From: Bacillota bacterium
GTDB lineage: Bacteria; Bacillota; SHA-98; UBA4971
Direction of reading: 5' to 3'
Length of the DNA stretch: 64,000 bases
Assembly: GCA_030024085.1 (NCBI GenBank)
Contig: JASEJE010000002.1
Coordinates: 124,001-188,000 of the forward strand
In this document: piece by piece, positions 6,816 through 49,885 of the stretch
Layout of the letters: the number at the start of each line of letters is the position of its first letter
How positions within the stretch are numbered: the first letter of the stretch is position 1
Program-made: the position numbers and the translations under genes
Notes under the pieces: generated by a model
Seen by the model: the letters and a program-made list of their open reading frames with translations, nothing else
The model's database searches: none
What the model was told of the DNA's origin: nothing

Positions 6816-7033
6816 CAAGTAGATCGCCACAAGGTCGCGCTGCTTTTCAGCGCGCAAGTCCTGTCCGGGCCGGGGTTGCCGGTATTTGCACTCCGGGGAC
6901 GGCGCGCTTGCGGCGCGCCTCTTTCGAATTTGGCGCTTAAGGCTAGCCAAATTCCAGGCGCCCCGCCCTAGCAAGCACCGGCAACCCCAACACCCTCAGG
7001 AGAAGTGGCGCAAACTTACGGCGCCATACTTAA
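6816..7033 (-). repeat. ~210-bp inverted-repeat element, copy 1
   Basis: This copy lies within the ApbE-EetA-EetB-prenyl synthase operon and runs opposite to the 28181 copy. It begins CAAGTAGATCGCC (one base of the usual CTAAGTA end is lost) and ends at GCGCCATACTTA. Its internal stem GGTTGCCGGT...ACCGGCAACC is intact, as is the second stem TTTGGCGCTTAAGGCTAGCCAAA. The stop codon of the EetA-like gene (7030-7032) is formed by the element end. Confidence 0.9.
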
Positions 7034-44533: not shown

Positions 44534-44644
44534 TCAGCTTGCCTTCGAGCCAAGCGGGATGAAGAAGAACAGGAACATGATGGGTATGAACACGATGACG
44601 AAGATAAGGACTATCCATATTATCGTAAAGAACTCCTGGGTCAT
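44534..44644 (-). CDS. Tiny single-helix membrane protein (36 aa), family member 1
   Basis: A short frame starts at ATG 44644 with AGGGAGGT 8 bases upstream and ends at TGA 44534. The product starts MTQEFFTIIW, continues with a long hydrophobic segment containing IFVIVFIPIMFLFFFIP, and ends LGSKAS. It shares the start MTQE, the Pro near residue 21 and the final (W/G)SK motif with the two proteins at 46893 and 47134. The conserved start region and good ribosome site argue that it is real. It resembles small sporulation-type membrane peptides in size and pattern only; function is unknown. Confidence 0.75.
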   Translation of the reverse strand: MTQEFFTIIWIVLIFVIVFIPIMFLFFFIPLGSKAS

Positions 44645-44697
44645 CTAGGATACCTCCCTTCGAAGTCGGACGCCTCGCGCCCCCCGGTCCCGGGTGG

Positions 44698-45450
44698 CTA
44701 ATCGATAGGCATTGCCGTGTCCGGGTCCGCGTCCTTGAGGAACTGAGTGAGCATGCCTGCAACGAACCTCTGGAACTGCGGCGTCTTCGCGAGCTCGAGG
44801 AGGAGCGTGAGAGAGCCGCCAGGGATGGGCAGCGACCCAGCCTCCCGGACTCCAGCACTTTCAGCCAGCGATGCCTTGACCATGGCGCTGATCTGCGCGA
44901 GCGCCCCTGCTGCCTCATCGGCCAGCTTGATAGACGACTGGACCTTGTCGAGCGTGCTGTTCACGCTGCCGTCCGCGATGGCCCCGCGAAGCACCACTTT
45001 CGCACGAGAGATCAGGTTTGGACGCGACGCCGGCGCTGTCTCCTTTCCGATGTCGCTGGGCTTCGCCTCGTTGCCGGGAGCGCCATCCCCGTTCCCGGCC
45101 GGGGCGTTCCCACCCGGGGTCGGCTCGACCGCCGGGCCGTTTTGACGGTGCTGGTGAGCCCCGCGCGCCGTCTCCCTGTTCTGGATGGCGGCCCTCATGA
45201 AGCCTCCAGACGCGGCAACACGTCCTCTCTCGGCCCCTCTCTCAACCGGGGGCGCCGCTGATGTCGTCTCCTCGCCGCCCGGTGCACAGGAGGATTCGAC
45301 GGCATCAAGCCTGGATGAGACCTTTTCGTATGACTCCTCGAGTCGCCGAAGGCTCCGTTCGAGCCGTTGCAGCACCTGGTTTTGCTGCACTACGGCTTCC
45401 TGCAGCATCTGCATTTCTCGACGGGAATCCCTCGTATCCTGAACCTCCAT
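44698..45450 (-). CDS. Coiled-coil protein of unknown function
   Basis: The 250-residue product has an N-terminal coiled coil (about residues 10-50, MLQEAVVQQNQVLQRLERSLRRLEESYEKV split by heptads), a low-complexity Gly/Pro/Ala middle (about 55-145) and a conserved-looking C-terminal region (about 150-250) with LLLELAKTPQFQRFVAGMLTQFLKD. No signal peptide or membrane helix is present. It lies 53 bases upstream of tiny membrane protein 1 on the same strand and diverges from the 45686 gene. I do not recognise the family. Confidence 0.7.
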   Translation of the reverse strand: MEVQDTRDSRREMQMLQEAVVQQNQVLQRLERSLRRLEESYEKVSSRLDAVESSCAPGGEETTSAAPPVERGAERGRVAASGGFMRAAIQNRETARGAHQHRQNGPAVEPTPGGNAPAGNGDGAPGNEAKPSDIGKETAPASRPNLISRAKVVLRGAIADGSVNSTLDKVQSSIKLADEAAGALAQISAMVKASLAESAGVREAGSLPIPGGSLTLLLELAKTPQFQRFVAGMLTQFLKDADPDTAMPID

Positions 45451-45685
45451 AGAAAACCACCCCGCTGCCTACCTGCGCCCTGGGAGTCGCGTTGTCAGTC
45501 GGCATTACATTATATGAGCCTCCGTCCGGAGTGTGTGCGAAGCCACGGGCGCTTGGAAGATGCGGCTGTACCCGCACCAAGGTGCGTCCATATGAATAGA
45601 ATCTATCAGCACAGGGCAGCGTCCCTGCACGACTCATTCGGTGCAGGCCGGCGGACCAGCACCGGGAAGGTGGGGTATCACGTAC

Positions 45686-46054
45686 ATGACAGGCGGAATG
45701 GACGAACTCGCTTCCGAAATCCGTAAGAAGCTGGAACATAACGAAGGGGGGGCTATCGCGGGGATCCTGCATGACATGGGAGTCTCCCTGGATGACCCGG
45801 ACCGGATCAAGGGACTTCTCGGGGGGCTCGGATACGGCGATTCCCAGCTCTTTGACCCGGCACAACTCGTGAAGATCGCCGAGAGCTTCCTCGCGTCTAT
45901 GCCCGAGGAGACCAGACGCCAGCTTCTCGGCGTCGTATTCCAGGTGGCTGCCGACATGGGTCCGGGGAACGTGCCGAAAGAGATCCTGGGGGCACTATCG
46001 TCCGCCTCGACCAAGGATGGCGCGGATACCTCACCCGGCGAACACCAGGGTTAG
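45686..46054 (+). CDS. Helical protein of unknown function (122 aa)
   Basis: The product (MTGGMDELASEIRKKLEHNE...) is soluble and rich in helices, with LLGGLGYGDSQLFDPAQLV and MPEETRRQLLGVVFQVAADMG. The latter segment loosely echoes the C-terminal helix of the divergent coiled-coil protein. ATG 45686 is preferred although its ribosome site (GGAAGGTGGGG) is distant; ATG 45698 is possible. The divergent pair suggests a shared process. Function unknown. Confidence 0.65.
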   Translation: MTGGMDELASEIRKKLEHNEGGAIAGILHDMGVSLDDPDRIKGLLGGLGYGDSQLFDPAQLVKIAESFLASMPEETRRQLLGVVFQVAADMGPGNVPKEILGALSSASTKDGADTSPGEHQG

Positions 46055-46254
46055 GCACCAGATCAGGGAATCCTGCGGCCTATGGGCCGTCGGGCATCTT
46101 CTGCGGTTTCACGTGATCGTGCAGGCCGCGCGCACCGGACCTGGTGCCGACGACGCCCGTAGATGCTGCGGAGTCCCTGGGGTTTTCACTCAAAGCAGGC
46201 AACCGGGGTGGGGCATCCCGGGAGGCGGTCGCCTTTGAGGGGGGTGACCATGAG

Positions 46255-46458
46255 ATGCTCTTCGGCAGACTACGGGGGAAGATCGCTGAGCAGACGAGCC
46301 TGGACAGGATCATCGACGTGCTCGACCTTCTAGGTAGCATATTCTTTTTGATAGCCGCGATCCTCGCCTTTTTCGTTCCGCGGCCCGCTCCTTCTCCGCC
46401 CCCCGTATCCGGCAGTGGCCCGCGATTGCCGACGGATCGGGCACTGGACAGGAGGTGA
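46255..46458 (+). CDS. Small membrane protein (67 aa)
   Basis: ATG 46255 follows GAGGGGGG by about 9 bases. The product begins MLFGRLRGKIAEQTSLDRII, has one hydrophobic segment (LLGSIFFLIAAILAFFV, about residues 26-42) and a Pro/Ser-rich tail. It lies just before truncated repeat copy 7 and upstream of the tiny membrane protein genes. I know no family for it. Confidence 0.55.
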   Translation: MLFGRLRGKIAEQTSLDRIIDVLDLLGSIFFLIAAILAFFVPRPAPSPPPVSGSGPRLPTDRALDRR

Positions 46459-46490
46459 TGGCGCCGGCAGTGGAGACGGCGATAGTGACA

Positions 46491-46627
46491 GGCGCGGCGC
46501 GCTCGCGGCGCGCCTCGTTCGAATTTGGCACACGGGCCAGCCAAATTCTCGACGCCCCGCCCTAGCAAGCACCGGCAACCCTAACACCCTCAAGAAAAGT
46601 GGCGCAGACTCATGGCGCCATACTTAG
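46491..46627 (-). repeat. Truncated inverted-repeat element, copy 7
   Basis: Only the right two thirds of the element are present, from GGCGCGGCGCGC through the stems to GGCGCCATACTTAG; the end with CTAAGTAGATC and the GTTGCCGGTGTTG arm is missing. The gap 46628-46892 after it holds no gene. Confidence 0.85.
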
Positions 46628-46892
46628 AACCCGCCAGGGACCGCGATGCCGCGCCGGATCGGCCAGTAGAGGCAGAGCGCAGCGCGGGGCATTCCTGAAC
46701 GTAAGGTCCGATAGCGGTGACGGGGCGGCCAGTGACGCAGAAAGCAAGGAGCAAACCGGCGCAGCGCCCCATATTATAGTAGCGAGGCAGGCGCCATCCG
46801 AGGTATCACCCGTAGCCAAAGGGGCTGCACGACAGAACTTCGAGAGGTCCTTCAGGCGCCTCTGCGCACGGAAATGAAGGGAGGTATGACAG

Positions 46893-47000
46893 GTGACGCA
46901 AGAGATCGAGTTCTGGTGGATAATCATACTGCTCTTCGTCTTGCTGGTTCCGATGTTCATTATCATCTTCCCGATCTTCCCGTGGAGCAAGAAGGCCTGA
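46893..47000 (+). CDS. Tiny single-helix membrane protein (35 aa), family member 2
   Basis: GTG 46893 lies 8 bases after GGGAGGT. The product opens MTQEIEFWWIIILLFVLLVP and ends PWSKKA. Its nucleotide sequence is nearly identical to member 3, with differences mostly at silent or conservative positions, so selection acts on the protein. The Trp-Trp pair at the membrane edge is conserved in members 2-4. Single membrane segment, short charged ends; likely a structural or regulatory membrane peptide. Confidence 0.8.
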   Translation: MTQEIEFWWIIILLFVLLVPMFIIIFPIFPWSKKA

Positions 47001-47133
47001 TTTCATCAAGGCCTCCATGCGGGGAGGCAGGGCAGTGGAGGTGTCCGGCGGTCCGTTCGGGTCGGCCGATTTGAAACGGTCTACCCCAGGACGGCGCCGG
47101 ACCCCATGACAGACCAGGAAAGGAGGTCTTCGT

Positions 47134-47241
47134 ATGACCCAGGAGATCGAGTTCTGGTGGATAATCATACTGCTCTTCGTCTTGCTCGTCCCGATGTTCC
47201 TGATCATCTTCCCGATCTTCCCATGGAGCAAGAACGCGTAG
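47134..47241 (+). CDS. Tiny single-helix membrane protein (35 aa), family member 3
   Basis: ATG 47134 follows AGGAGG by 8 bases. It opens MTQEIEFWWIIILLFVLLVP and ends PWSKNA; only a few residues differ from member 2. The two are a recent tandem duplication, each with its own ribosome site. Confidence 0.82.
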   Translation: MTQEIEFWWIIILLFVLLVPMFLIIFPIFPWSKNA

Positions 47242-47288
47242 CGCGCGCGGCGGGTGGGTGAAGTCAGGCAGACGGGGAGGAGCAAAAG

Positions 47289-47402
47289 GTGGTACAGCAA
47301 CTCGAACACTGGTGGCTCATCATATTCCTGTTCGTTCTGTTGCTGCCGCAGCTCGTCGCGTTCTCTACGGCGCTCGCCGCGAGCTACGCCTGGGGAGCAT
47401 GA
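47289..47402 (+). CDS. Tiny single-helix membrane protein (37 aa), family member 4
   Basis: GTG 47289 follows GGGGAGGAG. The product begins MVQQLEHWWLIIFLFVLLLP, matching members 2 and 3 at Q3, E6, W8, W9 and the LFVLL-P core, but its C-terminal part (AFSTALAASYAWGA) has diverged. It ends 166 bases before the S8 peptidase gene. Confidence 0.72.
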   Translation: MVQQLEHWWLIIFLFVLLLPQLVAFSTALAASYAWGA

Positions 47403-47428
47403 TCTGGCTACCAACTCACAGCCTCCTC

Positions 47429-47468
47429 GCAGAAGGGCCTTCGGCCTTCACGGCCGGGGCCCTTCTGC
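47429..47468 (+). terminator. Hairpin between the tiny membrane protein genes and the S8 peptidase gene
   Basis: Arms GCAGAAGGGCC and GGCCCTTCTGC pair perfectly around an 18-base GC-rich loop. No T tract follows. It could terminate or attenuate the small-protein transcript. Confidence 0.5.
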
Positions 47469-47568
47469 GCGATGTGAATGGTGCGCGGGACGTCCCCACT
47501 CACCGCCCCTGGAGTTCAGGAATATCATTTATCGTCACGGAAGTTCGCCATGAAGGAGGACCTGGCAC

Positions 47569-48741
47569 ATGCTTCCGACTTACGTCGTCTACATTATGGC
47601 ACTTGCCGCCCTCGCGCGCAGATCGCGCCAGGGTGCCGGGCCCCGGCCGGTCCGAAAGATCATCCTGTTTGAGCCTGGCGTGGACCCTGACCGGGTCCGC
47701 TCCATCGTGGAGGAATGTGGAGGGAAGCTCAGGAAATCGCTCCCGATCGTCAACGGAGTGGCCTGCGTGCTTCCCAAGGAAGCCACGGCCATGAGCCTTC
47801 TTTCGCGCGCTGGCGAGGTGGCGTGGGTTGAAGACGACTTCATCATTTCCATATCGACCGCCTGTTTCTTCGTTCTCAGGCCGCGCCCCCGACCCCGGAA
47901 GCAGAGTATGCCGTGGGGAATCACGAAGGTGAAGGCCCCGGAGGCATGGGGGAGCGCCACCGGGAAAGGTGTGCGGGTAGCCGTGCTCGACACGGGCATA
48001 GACATGACCCACCCCGACATCAGGGCGAACATCGCGGGCGGGTTCGACTGCATCAACGAGACCACCAACGTGGTTGACGACAATGGCCACGGCACCCACG
48101 TGGCGGGCACCATCGCGGCCCTCGACGACGACTTCGGGGTCGTGGGTGTGGCCCCCGAAGCGAGGCTCTATGCCGTGAAGGCTTTCGGTTCGGGGGGTCA
48201 GGGGCAGGTGTCCGACATCGTGCAGGGCATGGAATGGTGTATCGCAAACCGCGTGCAGATCATCAACATGAGCTTCGGGACTGTCGATTCCAGCAAGGCT
48301 CTCACCATGGCCATCGAGAAGGCGGCCCAGGCGGGCATTGTCATGGTCGCCGCGGCCGGCAACGACGGCAGACGTGACGGCGTGCTCTACCCTGCCCGCG
48401 ATCCCAACGTCATTGCCGTGGCGGCGTCAACACGCGACGACCGTATAGCCTCGTTCAGCAATTCGGGCGGGCAGGTGGCTATTGCCGCTCCGGGGGAAGA
48501 CATCTATTCGACTTACAGGGACGGCGGTTACAAGAGCTTGACCGGCACATCGATGGCCTGCCCTCACGTTACAGGAGTTGCCGCATTGCTTCTTTCAGTC
48601 TCGCCTGGCCTCGCCAGGGACGACGTGCGAGAGATCGTGTGCGGGACAGCCACGAAGCTGTCAGGGTTTTCCCCGGACCAGCAGGGGTCGGGCGTTGTGA
48701 ACGCCGGGGCGGCTGTTGCGCGTGTGCGGCTGTCCGCGTAA
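47569..48741 (+). CDS. Subtilisin-like (S8) serine peptidase
   Basis: The 390-residue protein has a propeptide-like N-terminal region (KIILFEPGVDPDRVRSIVEE...WVEDDF) and a catalytic domain with the triad Asp141 (VAVLDTGIDMTHPD), His174 (NGHGTHVAGT) and Ser328 (GTSMACPHVTGVAAL). The oxyanion region AAAGNDG is present. The N-terminus is weakly hydrophobic (YVVYIMALAALA) before a basic stretch, so export is uncertain. The ATG follows AAGGAGGA. It lies in a block with tiny membrane proteins and a second peptidase, which suggests envelope or spore processing. Confidence 0.92.
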   Translation: MLPTYVVYIMALAALARRSRQGAGPRPVRKIILFEPGVDPDRVRSIVEECGGKLRKSLPIVNGVACVLPKEATAMSLLSRAGEVAWVEDDFIISISTACFFVLRPRPRPRKQSMPWGITKVKAPEAWGSATGKGVRVAVLDTGIDMTHPDIRANIAGGFDCINETTNVVDDNGHGTHVAGTIAALDDDFGVVGVAPEARLYAVKAFGSGGQGQVSDIVQGMEWCIANRVQIINMSFGTVDSSKALTMAIEKAAQAGIVMVAAAGNDGRRDGVLYPARDPNVIAVAASTRDDRIASFSNSGGQVAIAAPGEDIYSTYRDGGYKSLTGTSMACPHVTGVAALLLSVSPGLARDDVREIVCGTATKLSGFSPDQQGSGVVNAGAAVARVRLSA

Positions 48742-48802: not shown

Positions 48803-49885
48803 ATGGCCGACATGTCCCGTGTCCTCGAGGATGCGAGGTGGAGGCTGATGGGCCTGCCGAACGTGGTGGGCGTCGGGCGCGGGTACAAGGCTACGGCAGG
48901 CGTCCGTGGCTCCACTGAGTGTATCGTGGTGTTGGTGAAGAAGAAGTTCCCGGGAGCCGTCCTCGGGACCCAGGCGACGGTCCCCGCCGAGGTACGTGGG
49001 GTCCCCACTGACGTGGTGGAGGTCGGGGAGATACGATTCCTCGACACCGGTGCGGAAGGCATGGACGACGCAGCAACCGGCACGGCCGGTCCGACCAAGC
49101 GGACTCGCAGGCAAGAGCGGATGCGGCCGGCAAGGCCAGGTGCGAGCATCGGGCACTACCAGGTCACGGCGGGTACAATGGGCGCGGTCGTGTGGGACAG
49201 AAGGACCCGCGAGCCTCTCATCCTATCGTGCAATCACGTGCTTGCCAACGCCACCTCGGGCCGCGACGGCCGGGCGAAAGTGGGCGACCCCATCGTCCAG
49301 CCGGGCGCGGCCGATGGAGGGACCGTCGAACGTGACCAGATCGGCGTTCTTGAAAGGTTCGTTCCTATCCGGATGTCGGGGCGAGTGCCCGCGTGCATGG
49401 CGTCCAGGGTCGCGGAGAGGGTCTTCAACAACTGGCTGCGCATCACCGGTGCGCCGGCCCGGGTGGAGATGGTCACGGTATACTTCCCCCTGGCAGTGAA
49501 CACCGTTGACGCGGCGCTGGCCCGTCCCTTGCACCCGGAATCCATTGAACCCGGGATCCTCGAACTCGGCGAGTTACTGGGAACGGCCGAACCGGAACTG
49601 GGCATGCCGGTGAGAAAGAGCGGGCGGACCACCGGGGTGACCGCCGGTGAGATAACATCTGTCGATACGACTGTGAGCGTGGTGTATTCGGGCAACACCA
49701 CTGCGACGTTCAAGGACCAGATCATGACGGGGGTCATGGCCGACGGGGGCGACTCGGGGTCGGTTCTCGTTGATGAGAATATGCGCGCGGTGGGGCTTCT
49801 ATTCGCTGGGTCCGACAAGTCCACGCTGTACAACAAGATGACCAGCGTGATGGACGCGGTCGGCGTGACCCTCGAACGCCCGTGA
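48803..49885 (+). CDS. Trypsin-like (S1-fold) serine peptidase-like protein
   Basis: The 360-residue protein contains a nucleophile motif DGGDSGSVLV (Ser about 318) and a catalytic-His motif LSCNHVLAN (His about 145), plus GMPVRKSGRTTGVTAGEI, typical of a chymotrypsin-fold family found in many bacteria without signal peptides. The N-terminal part (LPNVVGVGRGYKATAGVRG, VVLVKKKFPGA) is also characteristic. No export signal is seen. It follows the S8 peptidase gene by about 60 bases and is likely co-transcribed. Confidence 0.82.
   Translation: MADMSRVLEDARWRLMGLPNVVGVGRGYKATAGVRGSTECIVVLVKKKFPGAVLGTQATVPAEVRGVPTDVVEVGEIRFLDTGAEGMDDAATGTAGPTKRTRRQERMRPARPGASIGHYQVTAGTMGAVVWDRRTREPLILSCNHVLANATSGRDGRAKVGDPIVQPGAADGGTVERDQIGVLERFVPIRMSGRVPACMASRVAERVFNNWLRITGAPARVEMVTVYFPLAVNTVDAALARPLHPESIEPGILELGELLGTAEPELGMPVRKSGRTTGVTAGEITSVDTTVSVVYSGNTTATFKDQIMTGVMADGGDSGSVLVDENMRAVGLLFAGSDKSTLYNKMTSVMDAVGVTLERP

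Follow-up and report, generated by a model that had tools for sequence, protein, structure and literature searches.

Introduction

Among the tiny proteins associated with sporulation in Bacillus subtilis are SpoVM and CmpA, which are mother-cell micropeptides of <40 residues, as well as YjcZ, a tiny, multicopy protein with one hydrophobic helix and a Gly-rich N-terminus. The gene encoding YjcZ belongs to the B. subtilis sigma (σ) factor σK regulon (PMC517825), and BofA and other small membrane proteins are described as regulators of a sporulation protease in the SpoIVFB complex (PMC9042235). Here, we describe four frames that encode peptides of 35 to 37 residues, designated micropeptides a, b, c, and d, in a stretch of 64,000 nucleotides (positions 124,001 to 188,000 of contig JASEJE010000002.1, assembly GCA_030024085.1; referred to as "the window") from a Bacillota bacterium. 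An initial annotation of the window had noted these frames as a family of tiny Trp-Trp membrane peptides, with a loose resemblance to YjcZ-type sporulation peptides.

The peptides of the window compare with these described systems in different ways. They would resemble SpoVM and CmpA as mother-cell micropeptides of <40 residues, a likeness of description, but SpoVM is an amphipathic surface helix, whereas the peptides described here are predicted hydrophobic helices of membrane-spanning length. With YjcZ and SscA they share a tiny size, one hydrophobic helix, presence in multiple copies and, in some members of the wider family, a Gly-rich N-terminus; they differ by a W-W(-W-W) block ahead of the helix, by a second half rich in Phe and Cys, and by neighboring genes for a subtilase and two proteins of 122 and 250 residues (p122 and p250). 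Micropeptides a to d themselves begin with MTQE or MVQQ and have no Gly block. The YjcZ models PF09680 and TIGR01732 were absent among the matches at E≤1 for 21 family members, and a PF09680 search of the source genome and 60 relatives found nothing above the cut-off (there was one sub-threshold match, in a distant genome), while the B. subtilis control was found. Our comparison does not support membership in the YjcZ family; in their way of working, the peptides are probably YjcZ-like.

By their sequences, the peptides represent an undescribed family of single-helix membrane peptides of 25 to 45 residues in spore-forming Bacillota. Gene finders commonly miss genes of such length, and these peptides are covered by neither a Pfam nor an NCBIfam model; the literature searched on YjcZ, SscA, and small sporulation proteins yielded nothing on a WW micropeptide family. 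We consider it reasonably probable that these are late mother-cell, single-pass membrane micropeptides, and we propose an anchor or assembly role more tentatively. If this reading is right, spore-formers across several Bacillota families use unnamed late mother-cell membrane micropeptides with a linked subtilase, and the combination of a short frame, a ribosome site, and a σK motif provides a recipe for finding spore micropeptides elsewhere.

Results and Discussion

The four frames are genuine genes

Micropeptide a (positions 44534 to 44644, minus strand; 36 residues, MTQEFFTIIWIVLIFVIVFIPIMFLFFFIPLGSKAS) lies 53 bases downstream of the p250 gene on the same strand. The other three are encoded on the plus strand, i.e., b (46893 to 47000; 35 residues, GTG start, MTQEIEFWWIIILLFVLLVPMFIIIFPIFPWSKKA), its tandem copy c (47134 to 47241; 35 residues, ATG start, MTQEIEFWWIIILLFVLLVPMFLIIFPIFPWSKNA), and d (47289 to 47402; 37 residues, GTG start, MVQQLEHWWLIIFLFVLLLPQLVAFSTALAASYAWGA). 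A GGAGG-type ribosome site precedes each of the four, W8-W9 and LFVLL-P are common to b, c, and d, and b and c differ at only 2 of 35 residues; a has TIIW in place of W8-W9 in the source genome. The positions, strands, strong ribosome sites, and lengths given in the initial annotation, along with its shared motifs in three frames and its near-identical tandem pair, were thus all correct, and two of the checks it had proposed for these frames (i.e., a search of relatives and a comparison of silent and replacement changes between the copies at 46893 and 47134) were run with the results given below.

A mechanical filter was set to select frames of 25 to 60 residues that carry a ribosome site and reach a Kyte-Doolittle mean >2.2 across a 19-residue stretch. 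Over the entire window, it picked out a, b, c, and d along with the end of a single longer frame and nothing else, and it picked out zero frames in 20 dinucleotide-shuffled windows. Applied to 10 to 12 kb around the peptides in nine relatives, it returned the same peptides and nothing else. The peptides were found in 5/5 congeners and in four of the seven sister-genus genomes, with reading frames kept in both genera and with the same gene order, in which the peptides lie between sucCD and the genes for the subtilase, a trypsin-like peptidase, and PlsY. Micropeptides b, c, and d, but not a, are kept in the sister genus; a is kept at the equivalent place in G001 to G004 and was not found in congener G005 or in the sister genus, and b was not found in G004. 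Two sister-genus genomes (G006 and G012) carry spoIVA and have no family member at E 1e-3, which may reflect loss or incomplete assembly; the source genome (G000) is itself a draft of 65 contigs.

Replacement changes in the peptides are constrained. The ratio pN/pS was 0.10 between the tandem copies b and c, and 0.29, 0.56, and 0.52 for b, c, and d, respectively, when pooled over congeners, with all of these ratios resting on approximately 20 to 28 silent sites per pair; substitutions were mostly silent or exchanged one hydrophobic residue for another. The four tiny frames are thereby confirmed as genuine genes. While their shortness and their absence from standard families could suggest non-coding or chance frames, we give this explanation almost no credence because the filter found no chance equivalents, replacement changes are constrained, the frames are kept across families, and ribosome sites are present throughout.

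The peptides are, as judged from their sequence, membrane-spanning. AlphaFold2 predicted for c a single helix over residues 2 to 25 with a mean pLDDT of 89, a lone hydrophobic helix being an easy prediction, and this agrees with the one helix per peptide noted initially. Over 32 family members, the mean charge was -0.9 for the N-terminal flank and +0.6 for the C-terminal flank, and the C-terminal flank was the more positive in 27 of the 32 and the less positive in two. Under the positive-inside rule these flank charges predict an outside N-terminus and a cytoplasmic C-terminus.

The peptides belong to a wider family

A second peptide type, MAEITKP..GGG-WWW-IIII, is encoded at two more loci of the source genome, i.e., peptide e (C22:89773), which lies near a tmRNA-like gene, and peptide f (C62:42346-42468), and is also found in relatives. 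The tmRNA-like gene upstream of e, judged by eye (tag ANNEYAYAA; L004:660-1000), stands beside a smpB-like frame. A profile built from both types matched 15 of the 17 genomes of the class, each time inside a short open frame, and 27 of 250 sampled genomes of the phylum, representing 15 genera. Many rows of the profile came from searched genomes, which are thus recovered by construction; matches not by construction include those in G013 to G016, G093, G185, G231, and G233, among others. A ribosome site and, ahead of the helix, a W block were present in nearly all newly read frames; one weak match (G241) did not show this pattern.

With regard to the features that define the family (25 to 45 residues, a ribosome site, an acidic or neutral N-terminus, an aromatic block, one strongly hydrophobic helix, and a profile match), b, c, and d show all of them. 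Micropeptide a belongs by profile (E 2.8e-6, partly by construction since the alignment includes a itself), position, and size, but has the TIIW replacement. No Pfam or NCBIfam model matched the peptides beyond weak hits, such as those to Doppel or poxvirus membrane segments, which were dismissed as hydrophobic-helix matches. The family proposed initially is thus real and conserved, while the wider W-rich subfamilies, along with the recurrent neighbors described below, go beyond that proposal.

Promoter motifs of the family resemble the σK type

σE and σK recognize nearly the same -10 element and differ in the -35 element, which is ATA for σE and AC for σK (PMC3789822), and the published spacing for σK is 15±1 (PMC517825). 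A promoter for b, c, and d is predicted at 46748 to 46778 on the plus strand, with the -35 element GGAGCAAA (46748 to 46755), 14 bases, and the -10 element CATATTATA (46770 to 46778). In four congeners, the region ahead of b contains a conserved arrangement, GGAGCAAA-N14-CATATNATA or one near it, and in four sister-genus genomes the region ahead of the first copy does so as well; CATATNATA is kept in the congeners and the sister genus, and GGAGCAAA in nearly all of these, with a -35 variant in G005. For the operon of p250 and a, a promoter is predicted at 45508 to 45535 on the minus strand, with the -35 element CACA (45532 to 45535), 15 bases, and the -10 element CATATAATG (45508 to 45516); here CATATAATGTA is invariant in six congeners, CACA is also kept, and the promoter is σK-like by consensus. 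In both genera, e and f are preceded by GTGTCA-N16-CATATNATAT or a sequence near it, and xCA-N16-CATATNATA stands ahead of b, e, f, and their orthologues. Distant members show plainer forms, including AACC-N16-CATAGTATA in G231 and AACC-N16-CATATGCTA in G028. Across the family, mACm-N15..17-CATA was found in 17 of 32 upstream regions on the coding strand as compared to one of 32 on the reverse strand, with a mean of 0.9 and a maximum of 4 in shuffled upstream regions.

The elements of the two σ factors were also checked in the lineage itself. In B. subtilis, spoIVA is σE-dependent. The region upstream of spoIVA in the lineage studied here reads AATAAT-N-CATATACATT, and that upstream of yabG reads CACC-N15-CATAGTATG; yabG is under σK control in Clostridioides difficile (PMC3789822). 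The source genome contains spoIVA as well as sigK (342 bits; cut-off 299). We favor promoters of the σK type across the family because of the family-wide AC-type -35 element with CATA, the agreement with published spacing, the spoIVA and yabG check, and the presence of sigK.

A number of observations weigh against this assignment and the sporulation role that it suggests. The -35 elements of b (GGAGCAAA) and of e and f (GTGTCA) depart from the σK AC, and with these off-consensus elements in the lineage of the window, σE or another factor might act instead. In addition, 15 of the 32 upstream regions do not have the two-block motif, and the promoter consensus was recognized while reading the same sequences, with the 32 regions not fully independent. 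Genome-wide, CATATNATA is not enriched (17 sites, as compared to 17 for the reversed pattern), although the window contains three sites where 0.23 would be expected. As a means of finding a regulon, CATATNATA was therefore rejected as suggestive only, with three of the 17 sites located before family genes. The same sequence was also seen, by eye and from the sequence start only, before a YtxC-like gene and a SPOCS-like (DUF3794) gene (L098 and L089; G000:C50:3067 and G000:C12:35376).

All 27 peptide-positive genomes among the 250 sampled carry spoIVA, and none of the 39 genomes without spoIVA is peptide-positive. As spoIVA is present in 211 of the 250, however, the 27/27 figure is weak alone (approximately 0.01 if genomes are taken as independent), and among the 61 nearest genomes spoIVA was too common to discriminate. 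While the YjcZ membership raised in the initial annotation was not borne out, the sporulation role raised with it is supported because of σK-type promoters and occurrence only in spoIVA-bearing sampled genomes. Late mother-cell expression of the peptides is, on this sequence evidence, likely.

A strong hairpin at 47428 to 47469 on the plus strand (z -5.85), which has no clear T run, follows d and is the probable 3' end of a b-c-d transcript, as a terminator or a stabilizer; it is nearly identical in congeners, and in the sister genus its position is taken by a different GC-rich inverted repeat.

The promoters and the distribution of the peptides also bear on explanations outside an anchor or assembly role. 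Peptides of a holin-like type that aid mother-cell lysis at the end of sporulation would fit a late mother-cell promoter type, short hydrophobic helices, and multiple copies, but we saw no endolysin gene recurring next to the peptides, each genome has several divergent paralogues, the W-W interface residues are strongly conserved, and no data point to pores, which together make lysis peptides improbable. An accessory-subunit role in a vegetative membrane enzyme, of the kind played by the small proteins CydX and KdpF, would fit a similar size and topology; since the promoters and the distribution suggest sporulation, no recurring membrane enzyme was seen next to the peptides, and a search of solved chains found nothing useful (the best match, at E 0.43, was a designed channel), we regard such a role as very improbable. 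Similarly, size, a single membrane helix, tandem copies, and some C-terminal lysines are reminiscent of type I toxin-antitoxin toxins, an explanation that becomes highly improbable given synteny kept across genera and families, sporulation-type promoters, and no match to a Pfam or NCBIfam toxin family, although no dedicated scan for antisense RNA was made.

Subtilase, p122, and p250 genes recur near the peptides

The initial annotation had placed the frames among unknown proteins and two serine peptidases, and both peptidases were recovered. The subtilase (S8) gene (47569 to 48741, plus strand; PF00082, 211 bits) encodes a protein with a hydrophobic N-terminus, and the trypsin-like serine peptidase gene (48803 to 49885, plus strand) matches PF13365 at 24.3 bits, under the cut-off of 27.6; the latter stays in the block in both genera and was not seen in distant loci. 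p250 (44698 to 45450, minus strand; 250 residues), the probable operon partner of a, has a predicted N-terminal coiled helix, a disordered middle, and a helical C-terminal domain, with helices predicted partly confidently (mean pLDDT 63). p122 (45686 to 46054, plus strand; 122 residues) is soluble, probably helical, and belongs to a GI(S/T)P(D/E)NP family. Neither p122 nor p250 matched a Pfam family above the cut-off.

Genes for the subtilase, p122, p250, and the peptides are repeatedly found together, with a combination and an order that vary, so that the linkage is recurrent but neither obligatory nor a fixed operon. Family counts given here follow the labels of the tool used, and linkage figures are raw counts that are not weighed against gene density. 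Three other families, f15 (G028, G246, G145, G111, and G222), f39 (G093), and f108 (G231), have between them seven genomes in which a subtilase 42 to 48% identical to that of the window lies near peptides, and subtilase, p122, and a peptide occur together in G188. Homologues of p122, with the motif GITPDNP and an hhalign probability of 98.9 (E 3e-17), have peptides nearby in f15, f30 (G185, G233, and G156), f39, and f23; in G246 and G145 the homologue is approximately 5.5 kb away and not adjacent. The C-terminal domain of p250 is related to proteins near peptides in G079 and G180 (hhalign probability 96.3). In G079 (f23), an a-like peptide, MAQEVWFWW..., stands behind a p250-like gene, and a p122-like gene runs divergently from these, which is the order of the window. 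G180 has its p250-like and p122-like genes in this arrangement too, and a further W-rich peptide follows on the far side of p122. As a does in the window, a peptide in G036 faces sucD. A search started from p122 found it in 29 of 250 genomes. Of the loci first seen in this way, those in G036, G188, and G204 have a family-like peptide no farther than 1.5 kb away, and those in G188, G236, G052, G129, and G162 have the subtilase at that distance.

These neighbors raise the possibility that the peptides regulate the linked membrane-anchored subtilase as inhibitors, activators, or membrane adaptors, in the manner of small membrane proteins that check sporulation proteases. Subtilase homologues near peptides in seven distant genomes, co-location of p122, peptide, and subtilase in G188, and the hydrophobic N-terminus of the subtilase are in line with such regulation. 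However, e, f, and the class-level and f30 members lie away from such a subtilase in the stretches read, and at several loci with p122 and the subtilase the surrounding 1.5 kb contains no peptide; we consider subtilase regulation unlikely. That many peptides are far from subtilase, p122, and p250, along with the peptide-free p122-subtilase loci, also counts against an anchor or assembly role exerted alongside these proteins. The likeness to BofA is one of description, in that both would be small membrane proteins of the mother cell with a protease as partner, the association here being by gene neighborhood alone; the proteases differ in class, with an S8 subtilase here and an intramembrane metalloprotease there. 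Csp germination proteases share with the subtilase of the window a subtilisin fold in spore-formers, but the window subtilase scored weakly against the NCBIfam CspBA and CspC models (52 and 41 bits), far under the curated cut-offs (1250 and 675 bits), and only the S8 domain is common.

Under the reading that we prefer, i.e., late mother-cell membrane micropeptides with an anchor or assembly role, σK would transcribe b, c, and d as one unit, from the promoter at 46748 to 46778 to the hairpin after d, and p250 and a as a second unit. The membrane that surrounds the forespore, or else the mother-cell membrane, would then take up the peptides, which might work there with the subtilase, p122, and p250 in the maturation of coat or cortex, as embedded anchors or as assembly factors of a complex related to the coat or the protease. 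We put forward the anchor or assembly role itself as a tentative possibility, a little short of an even chance. A more specific late-sporulation membrane system, in which an anchored subtilase acts with soluble p122 and p250 while W-rich micropeptides hold or regulate the protease at the forespore membrane, is doubtful; if true, the subtilase, p122, p250, and micropeptides would represent a spore-maturation or germination pathway absent from descriptions of Bacillus models.

Other features of the window

A gene for a small protein, p67 (46255 to 46458, plus strand), which has one membrane helix and a Pro-rich tail, was found also in G001 and the sister genus, and p67-like frames were seen by eye near p122 in G246 and G188. 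p122, p250, and p67 are conserved proteins with no Pfam family above the cut-off that travel with the peptides; p122 also travels with the subtilase where no peptide is near.

Finally, a dispersed repeat with GGCGCAAACTTATGGCGCCATACTT occurs in 10 copies in the window with ≤3 mismatches, at window positions 7007, 8912, 17257, 20010, 26442, 28183, 46601, 53672, 57452, and 57861, as compared to zero copies in shuffled sequences. Among 247 loci compared, the core of this repeat, GGCGCCATACTT, was present only in the source genome's own loci.

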